A DNA stretch of 64,000 nucleotides from Gammaproteobacteria bacterium (lineage in GTDB: Bacteria; Pseudomonadota; Gammaproteobacteria; Ga0077536), in NCBI GenBank assembly GCA_016191285.1, contig JACPPA010000016.1:1-64000 (forward strand), written 5' to 3'. The position numbers and the translations under genes were made by a program. Position 1 is the stretch's first letter; each line of letters opens with the position of its first letter. The notes under the pieces are model-generated. The model was given only the letters and a program-made list of their open reading frames with translations. It made no database searches and was not told the DNA's origin. Of this stretch, positions 67-15,613 are shown piece by piece.

Positions 67-2004
67 CTACGCCGCCTCCGACTCCTCACCACCGGCCATC
101 ATGATTGTCGCTGAACCGGACAAGATGATTGTCGCGCCCCAGGCGCGCGGCACCAGGGGGATGAAGACGCCTCGGGCGCCGAGTCGTGCGTCGATGTAAC
201 TCAGATTGCTCCACGTCTGTATTGTGGGACTGAGCTCACCTTTCAATTCGAGTTCGACGCCGCGCCGCTTGCTTCGCTCATCGAGGTTGCGATTCACGTC
301 GCGACTGCTTACGACGTCGTAGCCAAAGAAGATCTCATCGTCGACGCGCAAATCGAACAGCGTCAGGGCGGCCTCATAGCGGCGCGCATGCCGCAAGCGC
401 AGACCGACCTCCCACTGCTCACCATGTTGTGGACGCAGATTGGCGGTGCCGAGGGTCAATTCGTCAACGTTGGGATTGCGGAAACTCTCGCGACGACTTA
501 GGAACAGATCAGCCCACGGTCGCGGTTGGTAACTCAATCCGACTTCCCAGGCTTGGTTGTGCCAAGTCTGATCGCGATTGTGCGCGACCTCAGTCATACC
601 GCGGCAGTTGCTCTGCACCGGTAGATTGAGTGTTACCGGCACCACGACCGGTACGGTCACGCCTGGCGCGATCTCGACGAACACCGTAGTCTCGACCACG
701 GTCGGCACGAATGTCGTATCACACAGCTGCCGCAGGCGTTCGTTGCGACGCGTGACATGAAAATCATCAAGTCGATAGCCCGCCTCGACACTGAAGCCTT
801 AGGGCAATGCCCAGCGCGAACTCACGTACCCAGCGTGATTGGTGAGCCCACCCAGCAAGCGGTGACTGCGATCGAGAAATCCCCGCCCATCTTCGCGGCG
901 CTGGTAGTCCGCTGACTGATGGTCGTAGCCGATGACCAGTTCATGCTCAAGGCCGAGCATCGTATAAGGAAGAGTATGGCTGAGTTGGAGATCGCGCTGC
1001 TGGGATGCGATGGCGTCCTGCTGCTGCGCGGGTGTCAGCAGTGGGGAAAAGCCAATCACAAATGGATTGTCGCGTACGCGATAGCTAGCAAGCACGGCAA
1101 ATTGGCCGAAATGCTCGTCACGTAGCGTAGCGCCGGCATGGAAGCGCCGATCAGTGGTCTCGCCTTCATCGTGGGGTGCATTGCTGGCGCGACGCGCACG
1201 TTCAGAAGCAAGGAAGTCCGTGCGACTGACTGGGCCGGGCAAGCCATAGTGGTCCTGGTGCAATTCGGCACGCGCGAAAGCGTCCAACCATTCAAGGCCG
1301 TCGTAACGCAGTTCAACGGCGCCGTCCTGACGGGATAAGTCGCCGTTGTCGCGATAGCCAGCGCTATCGCTGCTGGAGCTCCGTGTGGCGAGTGACACGC
1401 CATGCAATGTACTGCTGGCCGCAAGCGCCGCGCCATGGCTGTCAAAGCCGCCGGCATGCAATTTAAGTGAGGCGTGAGTCCCGTCCACCGCGCGCTTGGT
1501 ACGGATATTGATAATGCCGCCGACCGCGCCGTTGCCGTAGCGCACGGTATTGGCGCCGCGTACGACTTCGATACGTTCGATTTGATCGAGCGGAATGCTG
1601 GAAAAGTCGGCGCCACTCAAGTCCACTGCGTTGATGCGCACACCGTCGATCAAGACCAGTACATTGCTGCCCGCCGTGTCGCCCATGCCACGGATATCGA
1701 TGGTGGCGAATTTGTCGTTGCCGAAGAAGCTGCGGAGATTGACGTTGGCTTCGTGGGCCAATAAATCGACCAGATTGGACGATGTGCCGCGCGCAATATC
1801 GTCGGCGGTGATGACCGTGACGCTACGGGGCACTTCCCATGCTGTTTCTGTATGCGTGCCGGTGACGACGACTTCATCGACTTCGAGATGGCTCGGTTCG
1901 GTGGCGCCCCACGCGGAGGCAATGCAAGCCGACAAGGCAGCGCCCAGCCACCGACGCCATGTGAAGCAAACTGACAGGAATAGACGGACATTGCGCGTGC
2001 GCAT
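67..2004 (-). pseudogene. btuB: BtuB-like TonB-dependent receptor, broken by an in-frame stop and truncated at the C-terminus
   Basis: Outer-membrane TonB-dependent receptor, probably for cobalamin because a cobalamin riboswitch precedes it. The first part (799-2004) has a signal peptide, a plug domain beginning near residue 40 (VDEVVVTGT), and plug motifs such as VLIDGVRIN and VVRGANTVRYG. An in-frame TAA at 799-801 ends it. The same frame stays open from 798 down to 67 and carries further barrel sequence (SFRNPNVDEL, RGVELELKGEL), so one stop codon splits the gene. The C-terminus after VPRAWG does not look like a normal barrel end, lacks the usual terminal aromatic residue and probably misses several strands. 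Either decay, or a sequencing error for the stop; the abnormal C-terminus argues for decay. Confidence 0.8.
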
Positions 2005-2043
2005 GTTCGGTAGTCGCCCTCCGCGACATGGACAAACAACGAC

Positions 2044-2238
2044 GTGCAGGCCGGTCTCCGGACTTGTGGGGTGCTATTCGCGCGCTTTCTGGCCTTCCCG
2101 TGCAGAGCACAGTGGCATCTTCAGAAGCGCACCCACTTACCGTTGCGGAGGCAGTGACGGCATTGCTGGCTGGCAGCGCACCGTGCTTCCCGTTTCACCG
2201 CGGAGTTAGAATGACCCCGCGACACCTGAACATAACAC
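2044..2238 (-). promoter_or_regulatory. Cobalamin riboswitch
   Basis: Read on the minus strand this leader holds, in order, an AGGTG box, the CTCCGCAACGGTAA core (the B12-box region), GCCACTG, CACGGGAAGG and AGTCCGGAGACC with a closing GGCCTGC. This is the conserved order of the cobalamin riboswitch. It ends about 40 bases upstream of the BtuB-like receptor start, as expected for repression of B12 uptake by adenosylcobalamin. Boundaries are approximate. Confidence 0.92.
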
Positions 2239-2260
2239 CGTAGACAGTAACGGAAGGTGA

Positions 2261-3724: not shown

Positions 3725-4753
3725 TTATCGGGAAAGGCGATGTGCAGGCGCTTGAGCGAGCGCCAGTGGCATCTTTGTAGCGACCGGGCGGAAGCGAAAA
3801 TTATCGCGATAACGGGAAGGCGTCATGCCAACGTAACGTTTGAACAGAACGCGGAAGTAAGCCGGGTCGGCGTAGCCCACGCGCAGCGCGACGAGGTCGA
3901 TGGAATCGGTATCGGTTTCGAGCAGACGACGAGCGGCATTCAAGCGAAGCTTCTGCAAATACACTTTAGGCGAATCTCCGAACGCATCTTGAAAGCGACG
4001 GTAGAAGGTTCGCCAGGACATTCCGAACTGGCGTGACAACGACTCGAAATGGATCGGGCCATTGAAGTGGCCGAGTATCCATGCCTCGACACCAGCCATG
4101 AGCGTCCGTTCGGCAACCGGGCCGGTGAACATTGGAGGGGGCAACTGCTGGCGCGTGCGCGGCAGACCGGCCAGGAACCACTGCGCACAAGCGACCATGA
4201 TGTCGCGGCCGCAGAGCTGGTCGACGATATAGAGGGTGAGATCGATGGCTGCGCTCGCGCCGCAACACGAATAGATGCCCTGATCCTCTACCACCATGCG
4301 CTCGGCTGTCCAACAGGTTTTCGGCCAACGCTGCCTGACCTCATCGATAAGACTCCAATGCATAGCCACCGTGCGGCCATCGAGCAAACCGGCATGCGCG
4401 AGTAGCGCCTGGGTTGGGCAGACGGTGGCGATGGGTACCCCGCGCGCGACTCGTTCGAGCACCCAATCCAAAATGCAGGCACCGTCGCCGACCACTTCAT
4501 CGACAACGCAGGGCATGCCGGCCAGGAATACCAGGTCGGCATCTTCAGCGTGTGCTATCGACGCGCTCGGGGTGATGGTCACACAACCGTCGCAGGTAAC
4601 GGCGGCGCCATCCGGGGTGATTACCGATACCCGCAACAAGTCGTCGTTCGCGAGTTGTTTGCGAGCGAATTCGAGGACTTCGAGCGGTCCGGTAATCGTG
4701 GAAGCGTTGCCCCCGGAGAACGGCACCAAGGCGACGTGGGCAGGCTTTGTCAT
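3725..4753 (-). CDS. GlxA-type transcriptional regulator (DJ-1/PfpI-like domain plus AraC HTH)
   Basis: 342 residues with the start chosen at MTKPAHVALV (4753), preceded by AGGTAA; an in-frame ATG exists at 4795 and the frame stays open further upstream. The N-terminal half (about 5-175) is a DJ-1/PfpI-like amidotransferase fold (GPLEVLEFA, ADLVFLAGMP, TVCPTQALLAHAGLL, YSCCGASAAIDL). The C-terminal third is an AraC DNA-binding domain with two helix-turn-helix motifs (SLSRQFGMSWRTFYRRF and VALRVGYADPAYFRVLFKR). Such regulators usually activate nearby catabolic genes. It is divergent from the glutathione transferase gene, which it may control. The ligand is unknown. Confidence 0.85.
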   Translation of the reverse strand: MTKPAHVALVPFSGGNASTITGPLEVLEFARKQLANDDLLRVSVITPDGAAVTCDGCVTITPSASIAHAEDADLVFLAGMPCVVDEVVGDGACILDWVLERVARGVPIATVCPTQALLAHAGLLDGRTVAMHWSLIDEVRQRWPKTCWTAERMVVEDQGIYSCCGASAAIDLTLYIVDQLCGRDIMVACAQWFLAGLPRTRQQLPPPMFTGPVAERTLMAGVEAWILGHFNGPIHFESLSRQFGMSWRTFYRRFQDAFGDSPKVYLQKLRLNAARRLLETDTDSIDLVALRVGYADPAYFRVLFKRYVGMTPSRYRDNFRFRPVATKMPLALAQAPAHRLSR

Positions 4754-4894: not shown

Positions 4895-5590
4895 ATGTCG
4901 ATATTGCTCTACGACCTCGCAGGTGCGGATCCCGAGATCTTTTTTAGCCCGTTCTGCTGGCGAACCCGCATGGCGCTGCTGCACAAAGGCCTCGACTTCG
5001 AGGTTCTCCCTTGGCGCTTCTCGGACCGCAGCGCGACCGCGGACTCGGGACACAATAGCGTCCCCATCATTCGTGACGGTGATCGGTGGGTCGGGGATTC
5101 CTGGGAGATTGCACGCTACCTCGATCGCCAATACCCGACGCGCCCCACGCTCATAGCTGGTCCCCAGGGTGAAGCTCACGCACGTCTGGTTTCAGGCCTG
5201 TGCGGCACGCTGATCTTTCCTGCCGCGATTCGTATCGCGCTGTTGCCCGCCTACGGTCTGCTAGATGACAGTTCAAAACCCTATTTTCGCGAAAGTCGCG
5301 AGCAGATGTTCGGCAAGCGGCTGGAAGATATCGACGCGGACGAGGCGACGGGGCGGGCAGGGCTCGCCGCCGCGCTTGCGCCTTTCCACGAAGCGTTGGC
5401 GGCATGCCCGTTCATCAATGGTGCCGAACCGGCCTATCCAGATTATCTGCTGTTTGGGGTGCTCAAGTGGCCGGACATTGTCAGTGCCTATGCACCGCTT
5501 GACGGGACGAGTGCGGTTGGCCGCTGGTTCGAACGGATGAACAGTCTCTATGACGGATACGCCGGTAAAGCGCGGACCGTGCGTGACTGA
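4895..5590 (+). CDS. Glutathione S-transferase, LigE/LigF-like (beta-etherase-type)
   Basis: 231-residue cytosolic glutathione transferase. The start MSILLYDLAG at 4895 follows GGAGGG at a proper distance; the open frame reaches 4778. The thioredoxin-like N-terminal domain (1-80) has SPFCWRTRMALLHKGL and the glutathione-binding stretch VPIIRDGDRWVGDSWEIARY. The rest is an all-helical C-terminal domain ending with WFERMNSLYDGYAGKA. The N-terminal pattern recalls beta-aryl etherases LigE/LigF and related GSTs, so removal of an ether or electrophile is possible, but the substrate cannot be read from sequence. It is divergent from the GlxA-type regulator. Confidence 0.8.
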   Translation: MSILLYDLAGADPEIFFSPFCWRTRMALLHKGLDFEVLPWRFSDRSATADSGHNSVPIIRDGDRWVGDSWEIARYLDRQYPTRPTLIAGPQGEAHARLVSGLCGTLIFPAAIRIALLPAYGLLDDSSKPYFRESREQMFGKRLEDIDADEATGRAGLAAALAPFHEALAACPFINGAEPAYPDYLLFGVLKWPDIVSAYAPLDGTSAVGRWFERMNSLYDGYAGKARTVRD

Positions 5591-5682: not shown

Positions 5683-7467
5683 ATGGGCGGCACAGATCAG
5701 ACTGAACGAGAACAGGTGTTGCTAGCGGCGATGACCGGTGCTGGCGCGAATCCCAACTGGCTGACCAGCGATATGGTTGACGCCCTAATGGGCGGTCACG
5801 GCATGTTGAACATCGCGGTCGTCAACATCGCCGACGTGTTGGTCGGTGAACTCAAGCGCGGCATGGACACCAAACTGCGTTTTGCGAACGCGGCCAGCCA
5901 GCCAGTCGATGAAGTGCTGACCAAGGCCATCAAGGCGGCCGTGGCAGCCGGCGCTGCGCCAGCCAATGCCGCGCTGCTCGCCGCCGTCATGATGTATTTG
6001 ACCGGCACCAAGGCCCAGGTTGGTATTCCAGCCGGTAATCGTAAGCTGGGTGCCAGCGCGCGGATGCTGGCGGGCGTTGACCGTTGTGGCGTGGCCGCGA
6101 TTCCGACTTCGAAGAAGAACAACAAAGTGTCGGGATTCGCCGCGGTGATGGCTATCCATCAGGCGATGATGGAAGGGCGCTTGTCGCCGGTCAGTGGCTA
6201 CAACCTGGCGGTCTCGGGCGGGCCGCTCATCGGCCATGGCCGGCTCGGCGAGGACATCATCTTTCCGGCCATGGCGGTGAACGGGGCGCGTATCGGTACC
6301 CAGGCGATGATGGACTGCATGGCCGGCGCTGGATTCAAACCGCAGGCCTTGAATGCAGCCGTATTCGGCGCCGCAGCAATACTCGAGATAATTCATCCCG
6401 ACGCCGATGTCGCGGAAGAATATGGACCCCATGGCAAAGTAACCACTGCATTCCTGGCCGGCAAAACCGCGGCCGAGACGGCGGGCTTACCGGAAAAGCT
6501 CCATGTCAGAATCACGGGCCAGGAGTATTCGACCGGTCAGGTGATCGGTGATCTCGGGCTGATCCTGAAAGATATCGGCGGGCCGACCGTGATCGGCATC
6601 ATGGCGGTGGACGAGATCATGGGCGTCTTCCAGGAAGGCATCGCAGGCTCGTCGGCTGGTCCAGTGAACCCGCCGCTCGGGCACGTATGCACCGATGCTG
6701 TGATTGCTATGAAATGTCTGCTCGAAGAGGGCGCGACACCGGAGAGTGTGGCCGACGCGCTGTGCAAACGCCGCTACGATTTCGCCTTTGATCCCGAAAC
6801 CTCGATGGTTGCCATGAATATAGTGGCGAAGAAGGCCGCGCAGCTCAGGAGCGGGCCGGTGACCAACGCCATGATCCTGGCGTCGGAGCCGGTGCGCGCC
6901 AAGGCTCTTTATCGCCGGGCCGCCAAAGCATACGACGATCTCAGCGCGGGTAAGGATCTCGCGACCGTCGTGCGCGAGTTGGACGAGGAACGCAAGACCA
7001 AGGTCGAGACGCGCGTCGGATCCTTTCTGAGCCGGATGACCGGTAAGAACGTCACTATCCGTCTCACTCATATCGGGCCCGGTGCGCGGCGCACAAGCCA
7101 ACTCGCCAAGGAGTGGTTTGCATTCGATGCCCATCTCGATGCCGAGATTACGGTCGATGGCGTGACCACGGTGCTGGAACGCTACTCCGACCAGATAATT
7201 CCCGATGTTGCGCTAGGCAAGCGGCCGGATATCGCTTGGGCCGTGCCCATGGTCGCGCCGCTCGCGAGCGAGATACTGCTGGCCTCTAATGTCATCATGA
7301 ATGTTACCGTTCCGGCCGCAGTGGCGGCGGCAATGGGCAAGTTGAGTCCCGAGGAAGCCGGTGCTATAGCCCAGCGCGCAGGCTTCGTCTCCTCAGGGAT
7401 CCCAGGCTCGAACGTCAACGCCGCGACCGCCGCGCGGCTCGCGATTAAGGTCATGAACGCGCCATGA
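5683..7467 (+). CDS. Uncharacterised 594-residue protein at the head of the lar gene cluster
   Basis: I do not recognise this family. The protein is rich in Ala and Gly, has no signal peptide or obvious membrane segment, and carries repeated small-residue motifs: GGHGMLNIAVVNIADVL (about 43-60), GVAAIPTSKKNNKVSGFAAV, LAVSGGPLIGHGRLGEDI, KVTTAFLAGKTAAETAG and GSSAGPVNPPLGHVCTDAV. Few cysteines are present. It shows none of the LarA lactate racemase signatures. Its stop overlaps the start of the next gene (ATGA, 7464-7467), and larC, larE and larB follow, so it is translationally coupled to an NPN cofactor locus. It could be a cofactor-dependent enzyme or a helper. A remote relation to the L-serine dehydratase alpha fold crossed my mind but is unsupported. 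Confidence 0.55.
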   Translation: MGGTDQTEREQVLLAAMTGAGANPNWLTSDMVDALMGGHGMLNIAVVNIADVLVGELKRGMDTKLRFANAASQPVDEVLTKAIKAAVAAGAAPANAALLAAVMMYLTGTKAQVGIPAGNRKLGASARMLAGVDRCGVAAIPTSKKNNKVSGFAAVMAIHQAMMEGRLSPVSGYNLAVSGGPLIGHGRLGEDIIFPAMAVNGARIGTQAMMDCMAGAGFKPQALNAAVFGAAAILEIIHPDADVAEEYGPHGKVTTAFLAGKTAAETAGLPEKLHVRITGQEYSTGQVIGDLGLILKDIGGPTVIGIMAVDEIMGVFQEGIAGSSAGPVNPPLGHVCTDAVIAMKCLLEEGATPESVADALCKRRYDFAFDPETSMVAMNIVAKKAAQLRSGPVTNAMILASEPVRAKALYRRAAKAYDDLSAGKDLATVVRELDEERKTKVETRVGSFLSRMTGKNVTIRLTHIGPGARRTSQLAKEWFAFDAHLDAEITVDGVTTVLERYSDQIIPDVALGKRPDIAWAVPMVAPLASEILLASNVIMNVTVPAAVAAAMGKLSPEEAGAIAQRAGFVSSGIPGSNVNAATAARLAIKVMNAP

Positions 7468-7973
7468 GCGAGGGGATGCGACTGCTGATGGCTCAGGTTG
7501 ACGACGTTCCCGGTGAGCTTATAGGCGAATTCATCCGTCGCGCTGAAGCGCTTGGCGCGCGCAATGTGCAGGTCGTGCCCGCGTTGACCAAGAAGGGACG
7601 TCCCAGCTACATCGTTTACCTGGACGTGGCTGCTCATCTGGAAACAGAAGCGGGGCTGCTGCTCGGCTTGGAGCTCGGTACCTGGGGGTATCGAGTGCTG
7701 GCCGCTGAGCATCGGCACTTCGATATCGCGCGGCTCGAAGTGGTGCTTGCGATTACCGTCGCTGCAACGAATCATGAATTCCCGTTGCGTGCAAAGACCA
7801 TCTCAGATGGCGAACGGCTGTTGCGCGTCAAGGCTGAACATGACGACCTCTCGGCTATCTGTGCAACGCTGCGCGGAGGTGGAATCAGTATCGCTCTAGC
7901 CGTATTGAAGTCCGCGGTCGAATCGCGACTCTACGAACAAGACGATCGCACGCATGTCGCCGTGCATCTGTAG
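7464..7973 (+). CDS. Stand-alone LarC2-like protein
   Basis: 169 residues resembling the C-terminal (LarC2, CTP-binding cyclometallase) half of LarC: AQVDDVPGELIGEFIRR, ALTKKGRPSYIVYLDV, then LGTWGYRVLAAEHRHF, matching the LarC2 pattern of a DD-containing strand, a KKGRPG-like loop and a TTLGVR-like strand. A full-length LarC with its own C-terminal domain lies 300 bp downstream, so this is an extra copy rather than a split half. It overlaps the preceding gene by 4 bp. A role in nickel insertion or as an accessory to the upstream unknown protein is inferred only from context. Confidence 0.65.
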   Translation: MSEGMRLLMAQVDDVPGELIGEFIRRAEALGARNVQVVPALTKKGRPSYIVYLDVAAHLETEAGLLLGLELGTWGYRVLAAEHRHFDIARLEVVLAITVAATNHEFPLRAKTISDGERLLRVKAEHDDLSAICATLRGGGISIALAVLKSAVESRLYEQDDRTHVAVHL

Positions 7974-8025
7974 TAACCAGCGCGTGGCTACAGCCTGCAG
8001 CGCGTCCACAACGAGGAAGAAGGCC

Positions 8026-8247
8026 ATGACCAGACTCAGCATCGTATTGCTTTTATCCGCCCTGTCAGCGCCACTCGCGGCCCACGAAGGCCTGGAGCTC
8101 GACAGCCCTCTGCATAATTTCCTGCACTCTTTCGGTACCGATAATGCAATTGGTGTTTGCGCTATCGGCCTCATCATCGGAGTAGGCGTGCTGTTTCGTC
8201 GCCGCATGCGTGCGAGAGCGATCAGCCAGACGCGTTTGGCACGCTGA
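8026..8247 (+). CDS. Small exported or membrane protein in the lar cluster
   Basis: 73 residues. The ATG at 8026 follows GAGGAAGAAGG. A signal peptide (about 1-19, ending PLAAH) is followed by HEGLELDSPLHNFLHSFG, one hydrophobic segment (about 42-57) and a basic tail FRRRMRARA, giving an N-out, C-in single-span topology after cleavage. The AHEG opening and histidines recall the mature N-terminus of HupE/UreJ-type nickel transport proteins, though it is far too short for one. It lies between the LarC2-like gene and larC in the same direction. Function unknown; help with nickel is a guess from context. Confidence 0.55.
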   Translation: MTRLSIVLLLSALSAPLAAHEGLELDSPLHNFLHSFGTDNAIGVCAIGLIIGVGVLFRRRMRARAISQTRLAR

Positions 8248-8268
8248 CACTTTGCCGCGCGCAATCAT

Positions 8269-9522
8269 ATGATGCATCTCCACCTTGACCCGCTCGGTGG
8301 CGTGGCCGGCGACATGTTCGTTGGTGCGCTGCTCGACCTGCGTCCAGCCTTGGCGGACGGAGCTATGAAAGCCGTTCGTGCGGCGGGTCTGGACCCCGCT
8401 GTCGGGCTCGCGCACCGGCCGTTTTCTGACGGCATCTTGAGTGGCAGCCGTTTCGATGTGACCATGCCGGCGCGCGAATCGGGTCATGAACATGACCACG
8501 TTCTGCATCACCATCATCACTCCGGCCACGACCACACGCATCAAGAGGGGCACGTAGAATGGTCGACACTGCGTGCGCGTCTAGCCACAAATGCACTCGA
8601 TGCCAAAGTGGGGGCGCGCGCCATCGATATTTTCACTCATCTCGCGCAGGCGGAGGCGCGAGTTCATGGCAAGTCAGTCGATGCCGTGGCCTTCCACGAA
8701 GTGGGTGCCTGGGATTCGATCGCGGATATCGTGGCCGCCGCGTTCTTGATTGAGGCTCTCGGAACATGTACTTGGTCACTCGGTCCGCTGCCGGTGGGCA
8801 GCGGACGGGTGCGCAGTGCGCACGGCGTGTTACCTGTCCCGGCTCCGGCCACTGCGCTCCTGCTGGAAGGCTTCGCCTGCTTCGATGATGGTTTGCCTGG
8901 GGAACGTGTTACCCCAACCGGTGCCGCGATTCTGCGTCACCTCGCACCAGCCGCCAGCCTGGGCCGAGCGCCGCGTCGTCTGGTGTGCAGCGGTCATGGT
9001 TTTGGCCTGCGGCACTTCGCTGGTCTGTCGAACGTGCTGCGCATACTCGAGTTCAGCGGCGATTGCTCGCACGGTATTGATAGCGACCAGGTGCTGGCCA
9101 TTCGCTTCGAGATCGATGACCAGACCGGTGAGGATCTGGCGGTTGGTCTCGATCGTTTACGCGCTTTGGATGGCGTGCTCGATGTTCAACAAGCACCGAG
9201 CTTCGGCAAGCGAGGGCGGCTGTTCGCCGCCATCCAGGTGCTCGCACGACCAGAGATGGCCGAGTCAGTGACGGCGGCCTGCTTCCGCGAGACCACCACC
9301 ATCGGGTTGCGACTCCAGCGCTTGGAACGGCGGACACTTGAACGCCGCGCCGCGCGCACGCAGAGCGGCCTTCGAGTGAAAATCGCTGAACGCCCTGGCG
9401 GCGCGACGGCGAAGGCCGAGATTGCCGATGTTCTGGACGACGACGACCACCGCACGCGCGGTGCGCGGCGCGCTGCGGCGGAGGCCGAGGCGCTCGGTTA
9501 CGGAGACGAGACTCATGACTGA
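8269..9522 (+). CDS. larC: Nickel-pincer cofactor biosynthesis protein LarC
   Basis: 417 residues. LarC is the CTP-dependent cyclometallase that inserts nickel into the pincer nucleotide. The start MMHLHLDPLGGVAGDMFVGA is typical (the second Met at 8272 is equally possible). A histidine-rich loop lies at about 67-90 (GHEHDHVLHHHHH), followed by AVAFHEVGAWDSIADIVAAA and the VTPTGAAILRHLA stretch. The C-terminal LarC2 part is fused in the same frame (FEIDDQTGEDLAVGLDRL, ACFRETTTIGLRLQRLERR), unlike Lactobacillus where the halves are joined by frameshifting. It overlaps larE by 8 bp. Confidence 0.9.
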   Translation: MMHLHLDPLGGVAGDMFVGALLDLRPALADGAMKAVRAAGLDPAVGLAHRPFSDGILSGSRFDVTMPARESGHEHDHVLHHHHHSGHDHTHQEGHVEWSTLRARLATNALDAKVGARAIDIFTHLAQAEARVHGKSVDAVAFHEVGAWDSIADIVAAAFLIEALGTCTWSLGPLPVGSGRVRSAHGVLPVPAPATALLLEGFACFDDGLPGERVTPTGAAILRHLAPAASLGRAPRRLVCSGHGFGLRHFAGLSNVLRILEFSGDCSHGIDSDQVLAIRFEIDDQTGEDLAVGLDRLRALDGVLDVQQAPSFGKRGRLFAAIQVLARPEMAESVTAACFRETTTIGLRLQRLERRTLERRAARTQSGLRVKIAERPGGATAKAEIADVLDDDDHRTRGARRAAAEAEALGYGDETHD

Positions 9523-10330
9523 TGTCGCCGCCGAAGAGCTGCTGGAGCGTCTGACAGCAGTGCTGCTTGCATGTGCTCCGGCCGCGGTGGCTGTGTCCGG
9601 CGGGGTCGATAGCATGACATTAGCGTCGGTCGCCGCAACGGTGTTGGGCAATGAGGTCACTATGTTCCACGCGGTGTCGCCAGCGGTGCCACGCGCGGCA
9701 ACGGCACGCGTCGAGCGTCACGCCATGAGCGCAGGCTGGCGACTTGTGCAACTCGATGCCGGCGAATTTGCCGATCAGCGCTACCTCGAAAACCCGGCCA
9801 ATCGCTGCTTTTTCTGCAAGCAGAACCTCTATGGCACGCTGGCGGCGCGCACGAGTGCGCAGTTGCTTTCGGGCACTAATCTCGATGACCTGGATGACTG
9901 GCGTCCAGGATTGGCTGCTGCTGCTGCTAATGGCGTCCGCCATCCGTTTGTCGAGGCCCAGATGGATAAAGCCGCCATTCGAGCCGTCGCCCGCTACCTG
10001 GGCTTGGAGGATCTTGCCGAACTACCGGCCGCGCCGTGCCTGTCGAGTCGGGTCGAAACCGGTATACCGATCGCGGCGCGAGACTTGGGCTTCGTCGACG
10101 CGGCTGAAACCTTGGTGCGGCACACCCTCGCTCCGCACACGGTGCGTTGTCGACTCCGCCGCGATGGCATCGTGATCGAGCTCGATGACAAGACTCGCGT
10201 CGGACTTTCCGAGGACAAAATGATGACCGTATGTCAGGCTCTGAGCGACCTCGCTCGCGAGCATCACGTCGAAGGTCAGGTCGAGATTGCGGCTTACCGG
10301 CGCGGTAGCGCCTTCCTGAGAGAGCACTAG
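9515..10330 (+). CDS. larE: ATP-dependent sulfur transferase LarE, probably the iron-sulfur type
   Basis: 271 residues with the start MTDVAAEELLERL at 9515, overlapping the larC stop. LarE converts the two carboxylates of the pincer precursor to thiocarboxylates. The PP-loop SGGVDS lies at residues 28-33. Three cysteines, C98 and C101 (RCFFCKQNLYG) and C175 (APCLSSR), match the three-cysteine pattern known for LarE proteins that hold a [4Fe-4S] cluster and act catalytically, rather than the single-cysteine type that sacrifices its own sulfur. The assignment of type is by motif only. Confidence 0.9.
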   Translation: MTDVAAEELLERLTAVLLACAPAAVAVSGGVDSMTLASVAATVLGNEVTMFHAVSPAVPRAATARVERHAMSAGWRLVQLDAGEFADQRYLENPANRCFFCKQNLYGTLAARTSAQLLSGTNLDDLDDWRPGLAAAAANGVRHPFVEAQMDKAAIRAVARYLGLEDLAELPAAPCLSSRVETGIPIAARDLGFVDAAETLVRHTLAPHTVRCRLRRDGIVIELDDKTRVGLSEDKMMTVCQALSDLAREHHVEGQVEIAAYRRGSAFLREH

Positions 10331-10336
10331 CGAGCC

Positions 10337-11020
10337 ATGAACGCGCGGGAGATACGGCTAGACCTGTCACGCGCCGAGCGTATAGGCCTCGAAGAGGCGA
10401 TATTCTGCGCGAACAAATCCTCGAACCAGATTGAACAGATCCTGGATGAGATCCTAGCGGCGAACCGCAGTTGTCTGTTGACTCGTCTCGACGCGATGCA
10501 ATTCGAAGGTGTCACCGCGGTTCATCGAGCACGCCTCGACTATGACGGTGAATCGCGAACAGCATTTTTCAACTGGCGCGGGAAAAGCGCGACCACGCCT
10601 TCAGTTGCGATCGTAACTGCGGGCAGCTCCGATGTGCCCGTGGCGCGCGAGGCATTGCGCACGCTCCGCTATTTCAATGTCGCCGGGTTACCCCTGTTCG
10701 ACGTAGGGGTCGCAGGCCTCTGGCGTTTGATCGAACATGTCGACGTGTTGCGCACGCTGCCGGTAACAATCGTCGCCGCAGGTATGGACGCAGCGCTGCC
10801 GAGCGTGCTCGGCGGTCTTTATCCCGGCCTCGTCATCGCCGTGCCAACGTCGGTTGGTTATGGTGTGGCGGCTGGTGGCCATACTGCTCTGAATGCGATC
10901 CTCGCGTCCTGCGCGTCGGGTATCGTCACGGTCAATATCGACAATGGTTACGGCGCTGCTTGTGCGGCGTTACGTAGTTTGCATGCGGTCAACGCCTTTT
11001 CGACAGGCAGCGGCGAATAA
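10337..11020 (+). CDS. larB: Nickel-pincer cofactor biosynthesis protein LarB
   Basis: 227 residues. LarB carboxylates and hydrolyses nicotinic acid adenine dinucleotide, the first step of NPN synthesis. The C-terminal two thirds is the PurE/AIR-carboxylase-like domain: VAIVTAGSSDVPVAREAL, YFNVAGLPLFDVGVAGL, IVAAGMDAALPSVLGGL and AVPTSVGYGVAAGGHTALN. The gene starts 6 bp after larE, so it is co-transcribed. No larA or other known NPN enzyme lies in the window. Confidence 0.92.
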   Translation: MNAREIRLDLSRAERIGLEEAIFCANKSSNQIEQILDEILAANRSCLLTRLDAMQFEGVTAVHRARLDYDGESRTAFFNWRGKSATTPSVAIVTAGSSDVPVAREALRTLRYFNVAGLPLFDVGVAGLWRLIEHVDVLRTLPVTIVAAGMDAALPSVLGGLYPGLVIAVPTSVGYGVAAGGHTALNAILASCASGIVTVNIDNGYGAACAALRSLHAVNAFSTGSGE

Positions 11021-11663: not shown

Positions 11664-12695
11664 CTATTTCGGCTGATCTGCGGTACTCACAAATTTGTCG
11701 TAACAAATGCGCGATGCAAACATGCCATGCGCCTTCAGCACTTCGATAGCAGCGTCGATCATGCCAGGAGGCCCGCATAGGTAGGCCTCCGCCGCTCGAA
11801 GGTTATCCGAGAGCCGATCGATGACCTCAGTAATCAGTCCACTTTCCCCAGTCCAATCGCCCGGAACGTCGGGCTCCGAGAGAGCGGGGACGTAGGCGAA
11901 GGATGCCAATGCTTTTCCTACCGCTTCGATGTCTTCAGCGCATATCAGATCGGCATGGCGGCGAGCGCCGTAAAAGAAAGTCACTGGGCGTTCAGAGCCC
12001 TCCGCCGCCAGTGACCGGAGCAAGGCGAGGATCGGTGCCATCCCGGACCCACCCGCAATCATGACGATAGGCGCATGTCCTCTGTTTACGCCAAACTGAC
12101 CATAGGGCCCACGCAGCAGCAGTTCGTCATCAATTCTGACCTGCTCGGCCAGCGCGGTAGAGAACTGGCCCCCCGGCACCTGTTTGATAAGAAATTCCAC
12201 TCGTCCTTCGGCATTCGGCAGATTGGCCATGGAGTAGGCTCGCCAATGCTCGGAACCCGCAACGCATAACTCCGCGAACTGTCCAGGATCGTATTCGACC
12301 CGCTCAAGCCCCGTTGTCACCAACAACAAACGCCAGATGTCGGTTGCAATCTGTTCGACCGCCACAACGCGGCAGGGATATTCCTTGATTGGCCGCGCCG
12401 CACTCAGCTCCGCCTCGTCGTAGTCGCTGAGTTCAATGACTACGTCCTCGAGCGGGTATGCCGAGCAAAGCAAAGCCATGCCCGCATCCCGCTCGTAGTC
12501 CATCAAGGCGAATCCGGACGCATCGCTGACGTCGACTTCGCCCTCCACCACTTTCGCTTTGCAACTGCCACAGGCACCGTGCTTGCAGCCGTAGCGCAAA
12601 CCGATGCCTTCGCGCAAGGCGGCGGCGAGGATGGATTCATCCTCGCCACACGCGAACTCGATGTCGAACGGCGCTAGCCGAACGTTGTGACTCAC
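11664..12695 (-). CDS. Di-iron monooxygenase reductase (2Fe-2S ferredoxin plus FAD/NAD domains)
   Basis: 343 residues. Passes electrons from NAD(P)H to the hydroxylase. N-terminal plant-type ferredoxin with YGCKHGACGSCKAKVV and LLCSAYP supplying four cysteines (about residues 36-82). Then an FAD domain with RAYSMANLP and an NAD domain with MIAGGSGMAPILALL, and a C-terminal CGPPGMIDAA. This is the layout of MmoC/DmpP-type reductases. The start overlaps the alpha-subunit stop by 4 bp (ATGA at 12692-12695), so translation is coupled. It may also serve the second monooxygenase at 38-41 kb, which lacks a reductase gene. Confidence 0.9.
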   Translation of the reverse strand: MSHNVRLAPFDIEFACGEDESILAAALREGIGLRYGCKHGACGSCKAKVVEGEVDVSDASGFALMDYERDAGMALLCSAYPLEDVVIELSDYDEAELSAARPIKEYPCRVVAVEQIATDIWRLLLVTTGLERVEYDPGQFAELCVAGSEHWRAYSMANLPNAEGRVEFLIKQVPGGQFSTALAEQVRIDDELLLRGPYGQFGVNRGHAPIVMIAGGSGMAPILALLRSLAAEGSERPVTFFYGARRHADLICAEDIEAVGKALASFAYVPALSEPDVPGDWTGESGLITEVIDRLSDNLRAAEAYLCGPPGMIDAAIEVLKAHGMFASRICYDKFVSTADQPK

Positions 12696-14224
12696 GCGGC
12701 CTCCAGACTCATGACGGGTGGGGGCGGTGGCTTCTTCACCTCATACTGACAACGTCGAACGTCATCGAGCGTCCACATCGGCGCGCCGTCCAGGGTCGGC
12801 TGCGCTATGAGCGTCTTACCATCTTCGCGGACAAATCCCATGTCGACAGTCACGTCGGCGAGATCGAAGCCCTCGTACCGGTCGAGAAAGCCCTGAAACC
12901 CCTTGTAGTGCTCTGGTTCGTTCATGAAGATTTCCTGGCACCCTGCAGAGCAGAATATGTAGTTCTTGCCATTGTACACATGAGATCTGCCGGTATTGTC
13001 CTTGGGCGTCGGGAAGATAGTCGGCAACTGACAGACCTGACAGAAGTTCGGCAGCCCGCCGAGCTGCTGGATGATCAGTGCGCGATCTGCCGGATCGGTG
13101 CATTGATTGTACGCTTCCCAGAACCAGCCATATCGTTCGTGCCAGCCGGGATACTTCTTTTCGAACCAGTCCATGTCTGCGGCCGTCATCGGGTCCATGC
13201 GATGGTAGAAGACCGGCCATGCGCCGAACACGTAGATCGCCGCAGAGTGAGACAGATAATCCTGATCAGAAATCATACGGTCGAGGTACTTCGGCTGCTT
13301 GATGCCATAGCGCTCGAGCTTCTGATAGAAGCCCCCGTAGAACTCATCGAACAACCAGCGCATGTTCATTTCTTTCGCTGATTCTTGGCGATTGCGCACG
13401 AAATAGTCAGCAAACAGATTGTTTCCGGCGCCAAAACTCATATGCGTGCGCCATGACCACTTGTCTAAGGCCTGCTGGATCAAGGGGATATTACGGTCAT
13501 CTTGCAACAGGGTCGCGAGGGTTGCCCACCCGTTGGCCATGTGGCGTGCTTCATCCGACTGGATAGTGAGCATGGTCGAGGCAAGCATGTTGTCGCCATG
13601 AGCGGCGGCGGCCGTGGACAGTCCGACAAAGAAGATATTCGAATAGGCGGTCTCGACGAACATCTGCAGACCGATAGACGTTTCCACCGGATCGCAGGTC
13701 ATGAAATCCTCGCACATCGCACGGAAAATACCGCCACCGACGCTTGTACCCGCCGCACGCAGGGCTACGTCATAGCCGGCAGGGTCTCGCCAGCTGCGCA
13801 TATGGTGGCGCAGCGTGTTCATTTCGAGCTGCGTGTGACGCATCTCATCGAGCACCTGCATCATGTAGCCTTGGCGCAGTTCCATCGGTGCCACGGTGCG
13901 CGCCATGCGGCCCATTTGACGGCCGGCGGAATATTCGATGGCGGAAAGATTCGACAAACCGAATTTCATTCCTTCCATCCAGCGTGCGTCCGGTTGGCCG
14001 CTGCTTAGTCGGCTGGATGCCTCAAGAATGGCGTAGTGTCGATTGTCCTTCTCCTGCTCCATGTCGAAATATTCGCGCACGAAGGTCTTGAAGGGGTCGA
14101 CGGGTTTCAGTCCTTCTAAATGGAAACGAGTCTTTTCAACGAGCTTGTCTTCGACCGGGATGTAGGTCGGGTCCCAGTCGATGGATTTGACGCGATCATA
14201 GGCTTTGGTCAGTGAAGCACTCAT
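12692..14224 (-). CDS. Soluble di-iron monooxygenase, hydroxylase alpha subunit
   Basis: 510 residues with the start MSASLTKAYDRVKSIDW at 14224 after a GGAG; the open frame extends to 14293. Catalytic subunit of a soluble di-iron monooxygenase. Two metal-binding motifs are visible: LDEMRHTQLEMN and SDEARHMANGW, with the extra Glu ligands around LSAIEYSAG and FVETAYSN. The C-terminus has a YHS-like cysteine motif (CQVCQLPT and FCSAGCQEIF). Gene order beta-coupling-alpha-reductase matches alkene monooxygenases (amoABCD, etnABCD, group 4), but the substrate is not readable from sequence. Confidence 0.88.
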   Translation of the reverse strand: MSASLTKAYDRVKSIDWDPTYIPVEDKLVEKTRFHLEGLKPVDPFKTFVREYFDMEQEKDNRHYAILEASSRLSSGQPDARWMEGMKFGLSNLSAIEYSAGRQMGRMARTVAPMELRQGYMMQVLDEMRHTQLEMNTLRHHMRSWRDPAGYDVALRAAGTSVGGGIFRAMCEDFMTCDPVETSIGLQMFVETAYSNIFFVGLSTAAAAHGDNMLASTMLTIQSDEARHMANGWATLATLLQDDRNIPLIQQALDKWSWRTHMSFGAGNNLFADYFVRNRQESAKEMNMRWLFDEFYGGFYQKLERYGIKQPKYLDRMISDQDYLSHSAAIYVFGAWPVFYHRMDPMTAADMDWFEKKYPGWHERYGWFWEAYNQCTDPADRALIIQQLGGLPNFCQVCQLPTIFPTPKDNTGRSHVYNGKNYIFCSAGCQEIFMNEPEHYKGFQGFLDRYEGFDLADVTVDMGFVREDGKTLIAQPTLDGAPMWTLDDVRRCQYEVKKPPPPPVMSLEAA

Positions 14225-14282
14225 GTTGGATGAACTCCGGATGTGTTTTGCGGGGATGACTGTTGAAAGGCGCAGTCGCCTT

Positions 14283-14582
14283 TCAGTCAGCAAGAGCTTC
14301 CTTTATGGAGACACAGCGGTCTGCGACATCGACCTGCCCGGTATAGCTCGAAAGCACCACGAGTAGTGTCGGGACAGTGTAGGGTCGCCCCAGTTCTTCG
14401 ACGATAGTGTCGATATTGAAATTTAGACGACGGTTGCCGGTGATCGTGATGTAGGGGCCATGGTCTTCAACTTCGGCACCCGGGTTATCGACACATGCCG
14501 CTGCAGCGATTGCGTCCGCCTCTTCACCGGCCATGAACTTGGCGCTAACGCGGTGTGTTTCATGCAGTGTCGACGCGTTCAT
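14283..14582 (-). CDS. Monooxygenase coupling (effector) protein, MmoB/DmpM family
   Basis: 99 residues with no cofactor motif. The pattern is that of MmoB/DmpM regulatory proteins: an N-terminal strand (RVSAKFMAGEEADAIA), GPYITITGNRRLNFN and the closing TLLVVLSSYTGQVDV. Such proteins bind the hydroxylase and tune its active site. Its start overlaps the beta-subunit stop by 4 bp (14579-14582) and the alpha subunit follows 58 bp downstream. Confidence 0.85.
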   Translation of the reverse strand: MNASTLHETHRVSAKFMAGEEADAIAAAACVDNPGAEVEDHGPYITITGNRRLNFNIDTIVEELGRPYTVPTLLVVLSSYTGQVDVADRCVSIKEALAD

Positions 14583-15613
14583 GCCAGTACTCCTTCGGGT
14601 GTCGAGAGCCCTGTATCACCGAGCAGCGTGCGCCAGTCTGCGAGGACACGGGCCAGTGCGGTCTCGAACAATTGAACCGGCACCTCAACCGCCTCGAACA
14701 ATGGCGCCATGGCGCGCGCCGCCTCAATGGCCTGCGGCGTCCATTTCGCTAGCCAAGCGTTCATGATGGCTAAATTGCCGACATCCTGAGCAATCAGGAA
14801 GCGCACGAGCTCGGCTGCGGCATTGCGGCGAATTTCGCGATCTGATTCGGCGCCCTCCGCGATGACCGGTGTTATGGAGTCCCCGTGTCGGGGCGCGAAG
14901 CGCAGAACGAGTTCAGTGTTGAACAGCGCGGCGACTAGGGGTTCATGGATAAGATTGATGACGAAATTAATTTCGCCCCAGTCGCGGCAGCCGATCAGCA
15001 GTTCAATCAATTTGCGGGTCGGTTGCCATACCGGCGAATTCAGCCACAGTGTTTTACACCACTCGTCGCTGAAACCTTCAATGGCGGTTTCCAACTCCAT
15101 GCAGTAGAGGGCTATATCCTGAGCATGGCGATCCTTCTCCAGGCCTTGAAATACTATCGGGCACGCGACAACGTCTGAGAGTGCTTCGCGTTGGGCATAA
15201 CAGAGCGCCATGAACAACCCATACTCAGGAAAACGGTAGGCGGCGTAGTGACCTGCCAGGAATTCGTGCCAGCGCGGCGTCATGCCGCTGAACAATCCCG
15301 CCCGCTTCGCGCTGGCGATGTTACGTTCGATGCTCCCGCCTATCGCGGCTTGGCGAGTCACGTACGGACGGAACCATTCTTCCTGAGGGTCGCGGTAGGC
15401 CCACCAATCAGTCGCCTTCAGCACAGTCGAATGCTCGTCCCAGGCTGGCCGGCCGTTGATGTCGCGGTTGAACCACCCCTGCGCTGCGTAATTTTTGGGG
15501 TCCCACTGCACATGCAGTGTGACTTCTTCATATTGGGTGGCACGCCGTTTGGCGGGCTCAAAGTAGCGGAAGGGCACGACTGTGCCGCGAGCGCGGTGGG
15601 CTGTGTCAGCCAT
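14579..15613 (-). CDS. Soluble di-iron monooxygenase, hydroxylase beta subunit
   Basis: 344 residues, the first gene of the operon. The beta subunit has the ferritin-like fold without the metal ligands; visible family features are the RRATQYEEVTLHVQWDP start, EWFRPYVTRQAA, then HAQDIALYCMELETAIEGF, and an EPLVAALFNTELVLRFAPRHGD segment near the middle. It forms the hydroxylase with the alpha subunit. The paralogous subunit at 40406-41440 shares the layout and length. Promoter sequences with palindromes lie upstream. Confidence 0.87.
   Translation of the reverse strand: MADTAHRARGTVVPFRYFEPAKRRATQYEEVTLHVQWDPKNYAAQGWFNRDINGRPAWDEHSTVLKATDWWAYRDPQEEWFRPYVTRQAAIGGSIERNIASAKRAGLFSGMTPRWHEFLAGHYAAYRFPEYGLFMALCYAQREALSDVVACPIVFQGLEKDRHAQDIALYCMELETAIEGFSDEWCKTLWLNSPVWQPTRKLIELLIGCRDWGEINFVINLIHEPLVAALFNTELVLRFAPRHGDSITPVIAEGAESDREIRRNAAAELVRFLIAQDVGNLAIMNAWLAKWTPQAIEAARAMAPLFEAVEVPVQLFETALARVLADWRTLLGDTGLSTPEGVLA

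Follow-up and report, generated by a model that had tools for sequence, protein, structure and literature searches.

A protein of no recognized family encoded at the head of a larC-larE-larB operon is a candidate nickel-pincer nucleotide enzyme

Background

The LarA family (PF09861) comprises lactate racemase and other 2-hydroxyacid racemases and epimerases that depend on the nickel-pincer nucleotide (NPN). Three proteins make this cofactor: LarB, which carboxylates nicotinate adenine dinucleotide; LarE, which inserts two sulfurs; and LarC, which inserts nickel. Within the portion of the literature we surveyed, all enzymes said to use NPN belong to the LarA family. One published account reports that ~15% of the analyzed genomes carry larB, larC, and larE without larA, and infers from this that unknown non-LarA NPN proteins exist (PMC11796402).

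Here, we describe an operon in a gammaproteobacterial contig (the window, a 64,000-nucleotide stretch) in which these cofactor genes follow a gene for an unrecognized protein, X594. We think it reasonably probable that X594 is the apoenzyme of an NPN enzyme unrelated to LarA and is served by a dedicated LarC2-like protein; there are no binding, activity, or nickel data. Like LarA, X594 is encoded with larB, larC, and larE, and two copies may share one cofactor gene set, as with the two LarA genes of genome G070. Unlike LarA, X594 cannot be related to PF09861 by sequence, and its operons carry an extra LarC2-like gene; none of the five X594-bearing genomes that were searched contains LarA. As a candidate, X594 is specific and testable; its cofactor genes lie in the same operon, and it is also found on sequenced rhizobial plasmids. 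If the proposal is true, it would extend NPN chemistry past one protein family.

Gene content of the operon

The operon and its upstream flank are listed in Table 1. The coordinates of the initial annotation proved correct; the small ORF, the glutathione S-transferase gene, and the AraC-type regulator are additions to it. The initial annotation had described larC, larE, and larB as present and intact, and all three products indeed exceeded curated cut-offs. LarC scored 170.3 bits against TIGR00299 (cut-off 90) and 90.8 bits against NF052512 (cut-off 50), with 12bi and 6bwo as PDB relatives; LarE scored 237.7 bits against TIGR00268 (cut-off 150), with 6b2o and 5udq as PDB relatives. The start of LarE was assigned to the ATG at 9515 rather than to the start of the open reading frame at 9422, giving an 8-base overlap with LarC. 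LarE retains SGGVDS, CFFC, and a distal Cys, satisfying the SGGXDS and CXXC-C motifs, the latter being the motif of [4Fe-4S] LarE according to a published account (PMC9283937).

Table 1. Features of the operon and its upstream flank in the window
Feature	Coordinates	Strand	Description
AraC-type regulator with DJ-1/PfpI domain	3725..4753	-	Divergent from operon; PF12833, PF00165, and PF01965 over cut-off
Glutathione S-transferase-superfamily gene	4895..5590	+	Directly upstream of X594; PF13409, PF22041, PF13417, and PF00043 over cut-off
X594	5683..7467	+	594 aa, unrecognized; proposed NPN-dependent apoenzyme
LarC2-like stand-alone protein	7464..7973	+	169 aa; PF01969 over cut-off; proposed X594-dedicated cofactor carrier/inserter
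Small ORF	8026..8247	+	73 aa; signal-like/membrane segment and AHE/DG...LH..LH motif
LarC	8269..9522	+	Complete: LarC1, His-rich stretch, and LarC2; nickel insertion
LarE	9515..10330	+	Sulfur insertase, CXXC-C ([4Fe-4S]) type
LarB	10337..11020	+	Pyridinium carboxylase/hydrolase; NF033503 243.2 bits (cut-off 175)

The ATGA overlap that had been read as coupling the head gene to the LarC2-like gene was also borne out. Like the LarC2 domain of LarC, the LarC2-like protein aligns with the C-terminal region of PF01969 (positions 244-366, 53.4 bits, cut-off 22.1), and the KKxRP and GxWGYR stretches are kept. Unlike that domain, it has a gene to itself, alongside a complete LarC, and it falls below the NF052512 (LarC2) cut-off of 50 at 43.4 bits. 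It had no confident match in the PDB (best 3c19, E = 0.084). In the loci examined, the stand-alone gene occurred only next to X594: it was absent from eight of nine loci lacking X594, and the ninth match lay inside a LarC. Four of these control loci were searched at E ≤ 1e-3 (none matched) and five at E ≤ 1e-4 (none in four), and the set is weak, as only LarB was seen in four of the nine. The small ORF between the LarC2-like gene and larC was found in four gammaproteobacterial clusters (the window, L006, L009, and L011) and was absent from L007. Promoter-like sites numbered 4, versus 3.0 in shuffled sequences, and terminator-like sites numbered 3, versus 6.0; neither count is informative. Rfam gave no match at gathering thresholds at the clusters of the seven sources scanned.

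Co-occurrence of X594 with lar genes

We found 11 X594 genes in records from three proteobacterial groups (gamma-, beta-, and alphaproteobacterial). Ten copies are directly followed by the LarC2-like gene, larC, larE, and larB in the same order, and the eleventh sits in a genome with a full lar cluster; in one genome (G012), the lar set is split across two contigs. Across these 11 copies, no genome carried X594 away from lar genes. The initial annotation had proposed checking this co-occurrence, and the refuting outcome it named, frequent occurrence without lar genes, did not arise. That annotation had also noted no LarA nearby, and the absence proved genome-wide: PF09861 was missing from the source genome of the window (0/1; listed as 100% complete, 60 contigs) and from the other four X594-bearing genomes searched (G012, G019, G033, and Thiobacillus G578; 0/9 genomes or records). 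The same LarA search, run as a control, was positive in 2 of 14 known genomes. Genomic context ties X594 to NPN biosynthesis in genomes that lack LarA, one criterion for an NPN-dependent enzyme.

Among 190 related genomes, X594 occurred in 4, all of which are among the 8 with LarB over its cut-off; LarA occurred in 2, neither with X594. The association between X594 and LarB was strong (Fisher p = 1.3e-6; 3.2e-5 without the window's own genome), with the caveat that relatives are not independent. In the LarB search, a filter dropped 148 genomes whose LarB matches all fell under the cut-off and were taken to be PurE-like. With only 11 X594 genes, some of them near-copies, a small number of transfer events could underlie the association. 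In a sample of 398 genomes from the phylum, LarB exceeded its cut-off in 45, LarA was found in 6, and X594 was found only in the window's own genome. As 38 of the 45 LarB-bearing genomes have neither LarA nor X594, X594 explains little of the orphan-LarB gap and, even if the proposal is true, would not account for all orphan LarB.

A comparison of 12 loci, from which pairs with <33% identity, <80 residues, or both members in one group were dropped, showed that X594, LarC2-like, LarC, LarE, and LarB are common to all three groups, antisense ORFs aside. In three of the five plasmid loci, larB is followed by a HoxN/HupN/NixA-type nickel/cobalt transporter gene, and the other two records are unannotated. 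Two Rhizobium plasmids have larE annotated as a pair of ORFs; in Rhizobium sp. CCGE532, the gene at this position is annotated as one. Trees of 13 LarB and 12 LarC sequences give no verdict either way on whether X594-type proteins form a clade of their own: a branch supported at 41/58 has the X594-type LarB proteins on one side, and the LarC tree requires 3 changes, equal to shuffled labels. A 599-codon ORF before larC in G349 was rejected as an X594 relative, its composition being that of the antisense of a zinc-dehydrogenase-like ORF. In viral contigs, none of 293 matches to two short X594 patterns encodes a relative.

Conservation and duplication

Compared with L006, L007, and L009, respectively, X594 is 83, 82, and 88% identical, LarB 66, 67, and 72%, LarC 61, 63, and 63%, and the LarC2-like protein 70, 59, and 65%. 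X594 is the most conserved of these four operon proteins in the nearer relatives (82-88% vs. 59-72%). Because of this identity and a dN/dS of 0.06-0.10 against the three relatives, X594 is a real gene and no chance ORF. The lead is narrower in Rhizobium/Ciceribacter (X594 60-61%, LarC 57-58%, LarB 54-55%), where the dN/dS of X594 (0.19-0.26) is higher than that of LarC (0.13-0.16). In Thiobacillus, a second X594 (70%), with no lar genes beside it, shares its contig with a complete cluster, leaving both X594 genes to share one cofactor gene set. The ORFs behind this second copy look antisense on our reading.

The head protein had been suggested to be either a new NPN enzyme or a chaperone for one. 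This suggestion is supported, and conservation and duplication fit the enzyme; NPN binding and catalysis remain inference. It is unlikely, in our estimation, that X594 instead acts on the cofactor, whether by storing, delivering, or maturing NPN or by modifying it for an enzyme encoded elsewhere. Its place at the head of a cofactor operon, translationally coupled to the LarC2-like gene, is compatible with such a role, as is genome G049, in which larE, larB, and a shortened larC are present but PF09861 and X594 are both missing; given this genome, NPN users other than LarA and X594 may exist. However, X594 has 594 residues and is better conserved in the nearer relatives than the cofactor proteins compared, its Thiobacillus duplicate has no second lar set beside it, and a delivery role already fits the LarC2-like protein. 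This protein, rather than X594, is the likelier cofactor-insertion factor.

We likewise see little chance that X594 is an ordinary, NPN-free catabolic enzyme sharing a pathway, and hence an operon, with a separate non-LarA NPN enzyme encoded elsewhere in the genome. While the genes around the cluster do look catabolic, in the 12-locus comparison nothing outside the five genes was shared across the three groups, antisense ORFs aside, and the window's own genome lacks PF09861.

Sequence and structure comparisons of X594

Searching X594 (P0001) against Pfam-A and NCBIfam returned nothing at E ≤ 1 or at E ≤ 10, and against PDB sequences there were zero matches at E ≤ 10, whether it was used as a sequence or as a 9-row profile. 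For distant homology, nine aligned members were scanned against Pfam and NCBIfam at E ≤ 10. PF09861 (LarA, Lar_N profile) was unmatched in all nine; the only hits, Borrelia_P13 (Pfam; 2/9 members, best E = 0.054) and thiazolyl_GetA (NCBIfam; 4/9 members, best E = 0.23), were discarded as noise. The initial annotation had placed the protein outside recognized families and called for a profile search; in agreement, there was no Pfam-A, NCBIfam, or PDB sequence match, no characterized family unrelated to nickel was matched by sequence, and the fold is undetermined. Because it is not LarA-like by sequence, X594 would be a separate solution to NPN use.

Profile-profile comparison with hhalign gave probabilities of 0.2% against eight L-serine dehydratases (from 10 loci returned), <0.3% against LarC, the LarC2-like protein, and the other half of X594 itself, and 0.6% against a 474-aa protein of G049. 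The power of these comparisons is low, as the true pair of LarC2-like protein and LarC scored only 35.5%. AlphaFold2 modeling reached a mean pLDDT of 44.7 for the whole protein (5 alignment rows) and 41.4 for residues 1-400 (6 rows). On the low-confidence whole-protein model, Foldseek found 0 matches at E ≤ 0.001, and VIA-align gave a best Z of 4.3 without a meaningful match. These models speak neither for nor against a known fold, the LarA fold with its NPN site included.

Across nine sequences, four His (H39, H185, H238, and H334) and six Lys (K81, K121, K144, K148, K296, and K384) are invariant, and no Cys is. As candidate ligands these residues are supported by invariance only, and their grouping in one site has not been shown. 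In Fe-S L-serine dehydratases (PF03313), conserved Cys residues serve as cluster ligands. The alpha subunit of this enzyme and X594 both appear mostly helical and glycine-rich (an impression only). We find it hardest to credit that X594 belongs, as a strongly diverged relative that sequence methods miss, to a known enzyme family (an Fe-S dehydratase like this one, for instance). This reading draws on the mostly helical low-confidence models, the glycine-rich motifs, the undetermined fold, and the low power of profile comparison, and is opposed by the absence of an invariant Cys for a Cys-ligated Fe-S site and by the lack of profile similarity, low-powered as it was, to PF03313 or of any Pfam, NCBIfam, or PDB match to P0001 at E ≤ 10. 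A known fold would, in any case, leave NPN use by X594 possible.

Proposed mechanism

In the mechanism that we propose for X594 as an NPN apoenzyme, the operon would make NPN for the product of its own first gene. LarB would carboxylate nicotinate adenine dinucleotide, LarE would add two sulfurs via its [4Fe-4S] cluster, and LarC would put in nickel. We infer that the LarC2-like protein, translationally coupled to X594, may take over NPN from LarC and install it in X594. X594 would then bind NPN, probably through one of the four invariant His as the fourth nickel ligand, with one of the six invariant Lys possibly serving as the tether, and might act on a small catabolic substrate with NPN shuttling hydride. 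In LarA, a His is described as a nickel ligand and a Lys as an optional tether (PMC12611868).

A broader version of this proposal is plausible, and we hold it tentatively, at slightly under even odds: X594 may be the first NPN enzyme family outside LarA, independently evolved, catalyzing hydride transfer on a non-2-hydroxyacid (perhaps amine- or amino-acid-like) with its own LarC2-like chaperone, in a cassette moving between proteobacterial classes and residing on plasmids in rhizobia.

Genomic neighborhood

The Rhizobium cluster neighbors include a PLP lyase, RidA, and an amino-acid ABC transporter, while a flavin amine oxidase, a Zn-alcohol dehydrogenase, and an MFS transporter occur near the Thiobacillus and Rhizobium/Ciceribacter clusters. 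Together with the glutathione S-transferase and AraC-type genes, these weakly suggest catabolism of an amine, amino acid, or thioether-type metabolite, not lactate. Neighbors differ among the groups, and we therefore name no substrate. A di-iron monooxygenase beside the window cluster was dropped as a partner, with no relatives in 12 related loci (tblastn, E ≤ 1e-10).

The glutathione S-transferase gene also precedes X594 in L007, L009, and L010 (57-59%); it was not found in L006, where 1.7 kb of upstream sequence is available, or in the plasmid loci. It was considered as a lignin beta-etherase and rejected as a beta-etherase proper because it scored 131.8 bits against NF042997 (cut-off 440). 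The AraC-type gene, whose product is a probable regulator of the operon, was not found in L006, has no full match in L007, and occupies the corresponding position in L009 and L010. Its start was assigned to the ATG reading MTKPAHVAL, and its product is nearest to FtrA/GbdR, yet under their cut-offs.

X594 and the lar operon

The 594-residue protein at the head of the lar operon, X594, had been initially annotated as unrecognised, and it indeed gave no significant match to Pfam-A, NCBIfam or PDB sequences. Fold searches were uninformative because both predicted models were unusable. The reported larC, larE and larB genes, whose products make the nickel-pincer nucleotide (NPN), were confirmed by their profile scores (see table). 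To look for LarA (PF09861), the known NPN-using family, we searched the whole 5.1 Mb genome (listed as 100% complete) and obtained 0 matches, with 2/14 control genomes positive. PF09861 likewise matched 0/9 further-searched records, namely the X594-bearing genomes G012, G019, G033 and G578 (Thiobacillus) and others including four plasmid records, whose chromosomes were outside the search. The lack of a LarA-type racemase, initially noted near the operon, thus extends across this genome and these four.

Features of the lar operon, its surroundings and compared loci
Feature	Location	Strand	Remarks
X594	window 5683-7467	+	
LarC2-like gene	window 7464-7973	+	over Pfam Ni_insertion cut-off, under NCBIfam LarC2 cut-off
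Small ORF	window 8026-8247	+	signal-like start, LH..LH motif, one hydrophobic segment
LarC	window 8269-9522	+	over NCBIfam cut-off
LarE	window 9515-10330	+	over NCBIfam cut-off
LarB	window 10337-11020	+	over NCBIfam cut-off
ORF	window 799-2004	-	reads like a TonB-dependent receptor, from translation only
Cobalamin riboswitch	window 2032-2244	-	RF00174, 104.6 bits; directly upstream of the preceding ORF
Soluble di-iron monooxygenase genes	window 11664-15613	-	reductase, two PF02332 subunits, 99-aa ORF between the subunits
G049 lar cluster	L056 538-9000		LarE, LarB, LarC minus its C-terminal part
larE position, R. tropici CIAT 899	L012 18613-19419		two annotated ORFs
larE position, Rhizobium sp. 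CCGE531	L063 11541-12347		two annotated ORFs
SenA (selenoneine synthase) gene, Thiobacillus	L008 11957-13117		437.3 bits (NCBIfam cut-off 420)

Distribution and synteny

X594 was found in 4/190 related genomes (its own included), and the 4/36 positives of the order-level set were identical to these. The GTDB contig collection held six loci: three panel genomes again, as judged by coordinates (one gene being split over two contigs), and two copies in Thiobacillus sp. 63-78. Among 72,556 plasmid records, five carried X594 (four Rhizobium, one Ciceribacter; 60.8-61.8% identical). It occurred in 1/398 genomes of a phylum sample (its own) and 1/117 of the family of the Thiobacillus genome, and was not found in viral contigs. 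This totals 11 genes; one contig scan relied on exact peptides of the window X594, so distant copies would escape it. The family is rare and patchy, which we infer fits a mobile cassette.

The order X594, LarC2-like, LarC, LarE, LarB was kept in 10/11 copies (by tblastn, or by annotation in Rhizobium sp. CCGE531), counting G012, where the set spans two contigs. The one exception, the second copy in Thiobacillus (70% identical), lies about 26 kb from the first on the same contig; the co-occurrence with larBCE proposed as a check is seen as an adjoining lar set in all copies except this one, which shares a contig with such a cluster. The X594-lar finding is real and withstands the tests available. 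We favor the reading that X594 is itself an NPN enzyme, with its NPN binding inferred; that it is the first such enzyme outside LarA, with new chemistry, is a tentative proposal. The open-licence PubMed Central passages covered (including PMC11796402, PMC11770544, PMC7583248, PMC9283937, PMC12611868, PMC13329287 and PMC8305020) reported no non-LarA NPN enzyme and did not name X594, and no mention of its accessions or RS tag was found in that literature. A possible NPN enzyme is raised for Haloferax volcanii because larBCE is present there (PMC8305020).

Conservation

Compared with L006, L007 and L009 (the Thiobacillus cluster, L007, and two gammaproteobacterial loci), the window X594 was 83, 82 and 88% identical (dN/dS 0.095, 0.058 and 0.087). 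Respective identities were 66, 67 and 72% for LarB, 61, 63 and 63% for LarC, and 70, 59 and 65% for the LarC2-like protein, all with dN/dS of 0.15-0.22; LarE, outside the dN/dS comparison, gave tblastn identities of 59, 52 and 61%. These ratios are rough, as synonymous sites are near saturation. Against three Rhizobium/Ciceribacter loci the X594 lead was small (60-61%, versus 57-58% for LarC, 54-55% for LarB and 46-47% for the LarC2-like protein), and its dN/dS (0.19-0.26) was not below that of LarC (0.13-0.16). By inference, a protein under constraint no weaker than that on the cofactor enzymes is more in keeping with a catalytic than with an accessory role. LarB and LarC trees were unresolved.

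Across nine full-length X594 sequences, four His and six Lys were invariant, with no invariant Cys. In LarA, the last ligand of the nickel is a His, and the cofactor can be tethered through a Lys (PMC12611868; PMC11796402). The invariant stretches AGNRKLG, NNK.SGF, GPVNPPLGH and IGDLGL are candidate cofactor or substrate sites by inference; NPN binding has not been shown.

The LarC2-like protein has a gene of its own, coupled to X594, in addition to a complete LarC. It matches Ni_insertion through the C-terminal part of the profile and has a conserved core of its own, with 52 positions invariant among seven sequences. By tblastn it was not found in four comparison loci without X594, nor in 4/5 more, the sole match lying inside a LarC. 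In four of the nine only LarB was seen, leaving five informative controls. The protein may be a dedicated cofactor carrier or inserter. The window LarE has SGGVDS, CFFC and a later Cys, placing it in the CXXC-C type, for which a [4Fe-4S] cluster is reported (PMC9283937). The small ORF recurs in four gammaproteobacterial X594 clusters; its product could be a metal-handling membrane peptide, though this is a guess.

LarB without LarA

LarB passed its curated cut-off in 8/190 genomes: all four X594 genomes, two others with LarA, and two (G049 and G103) with neither. The association of X594 with LarB (Fisher p = 1.3e-6; 3.2e-5 without its own genome) is only a guide, as the genomes are related. 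In a further 148 genomes no match reached the cut-off, and most of the matches fell in the profile part shared with AIR carboxylase; we read these genomes' matches as PurE-like and set them aside. The loose threshold was positive in 13/14 control genomes, 6 of them over the cut-off. In the 14 kb of G103 inspected, LarB was accompanied by neither LarC nor LarE, so LarB alone is no proof of NPN synthesis. In the phylum sample, 45/398 genomes had LarB over the cut-off, 6 of these 45 had PF09861 (found nowhere else) and one had X594. Five LarA-less LarB genomes were inspected: in the stretch fetched, three (G194, G201, G264) had LarB without LarC or LarE, G228 had LarB and LarC, and G349 had LarC-LarE-LarB. 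A role for LarB beyond NPN is possible.

The G049 cluster, in a genome without PF09861, also includes parts of a TRAP transporter, a gene resembling quinolinate phosphoribosyltransferase and a 474-aa protein that matched no Pfam family. phmmer gave no match to three LarA-locus ORFs. The cluster possibly encodes a divergent LarA or another, still unidentified, protein that uses NPN.

Genomic neighborhood

Directly after larB, three annotated Rhizobium plasmids encode a HoxN/HupN/NixA nickel/cobalt transporter; the other two plasmid records are unannotated there. A GST-superfamily gene lies upstream of X594 in the window, L009, L010 (also gammaproteobacterial) and L007, and was not found by tblastn in L006 or the plasmid loci. 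Neither this non-universal gene nor the smaller conservation lead of X594 in the Rhizobium comparison moves our confidence in the enzyme readings, which rests mainly on synteny and LarA absence.

Near X594, Thiobacillus and the Rhizobium/Ciceribacter plasmids have in common a LysR-type regulator (73-76%), a Zn-alcohol dehydrogenase (70%), an MFS transporter and cupin group (48-73%) and a flavin amine oxidase (43-47%), with families assigned from representatives. Two Rhizobium loci carry MalY/PatB-type PLP protein, RidA and amino-acid ABC transporter genes, and two gammaproteobacterial loci an M24-type gene, in L010 nearest to ectoine hydrolase and under its curated cut-off. These neighbors hint, and no more, at a substrate among amines, amino acids or thioethers.

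The window's di-iron monooxygenase genes, on the strand opposite the lar operon, had no relatives across 12 related loci searched. The larE position is annotated as a single ORF in CCGE532; in the two strains with two ORFs there, R. tropici CIAT 899 and CCGE531, decay of the lar system is a possibility. The SenA gene is found roughly 2 kb past the second X594 of Thiobacillus.
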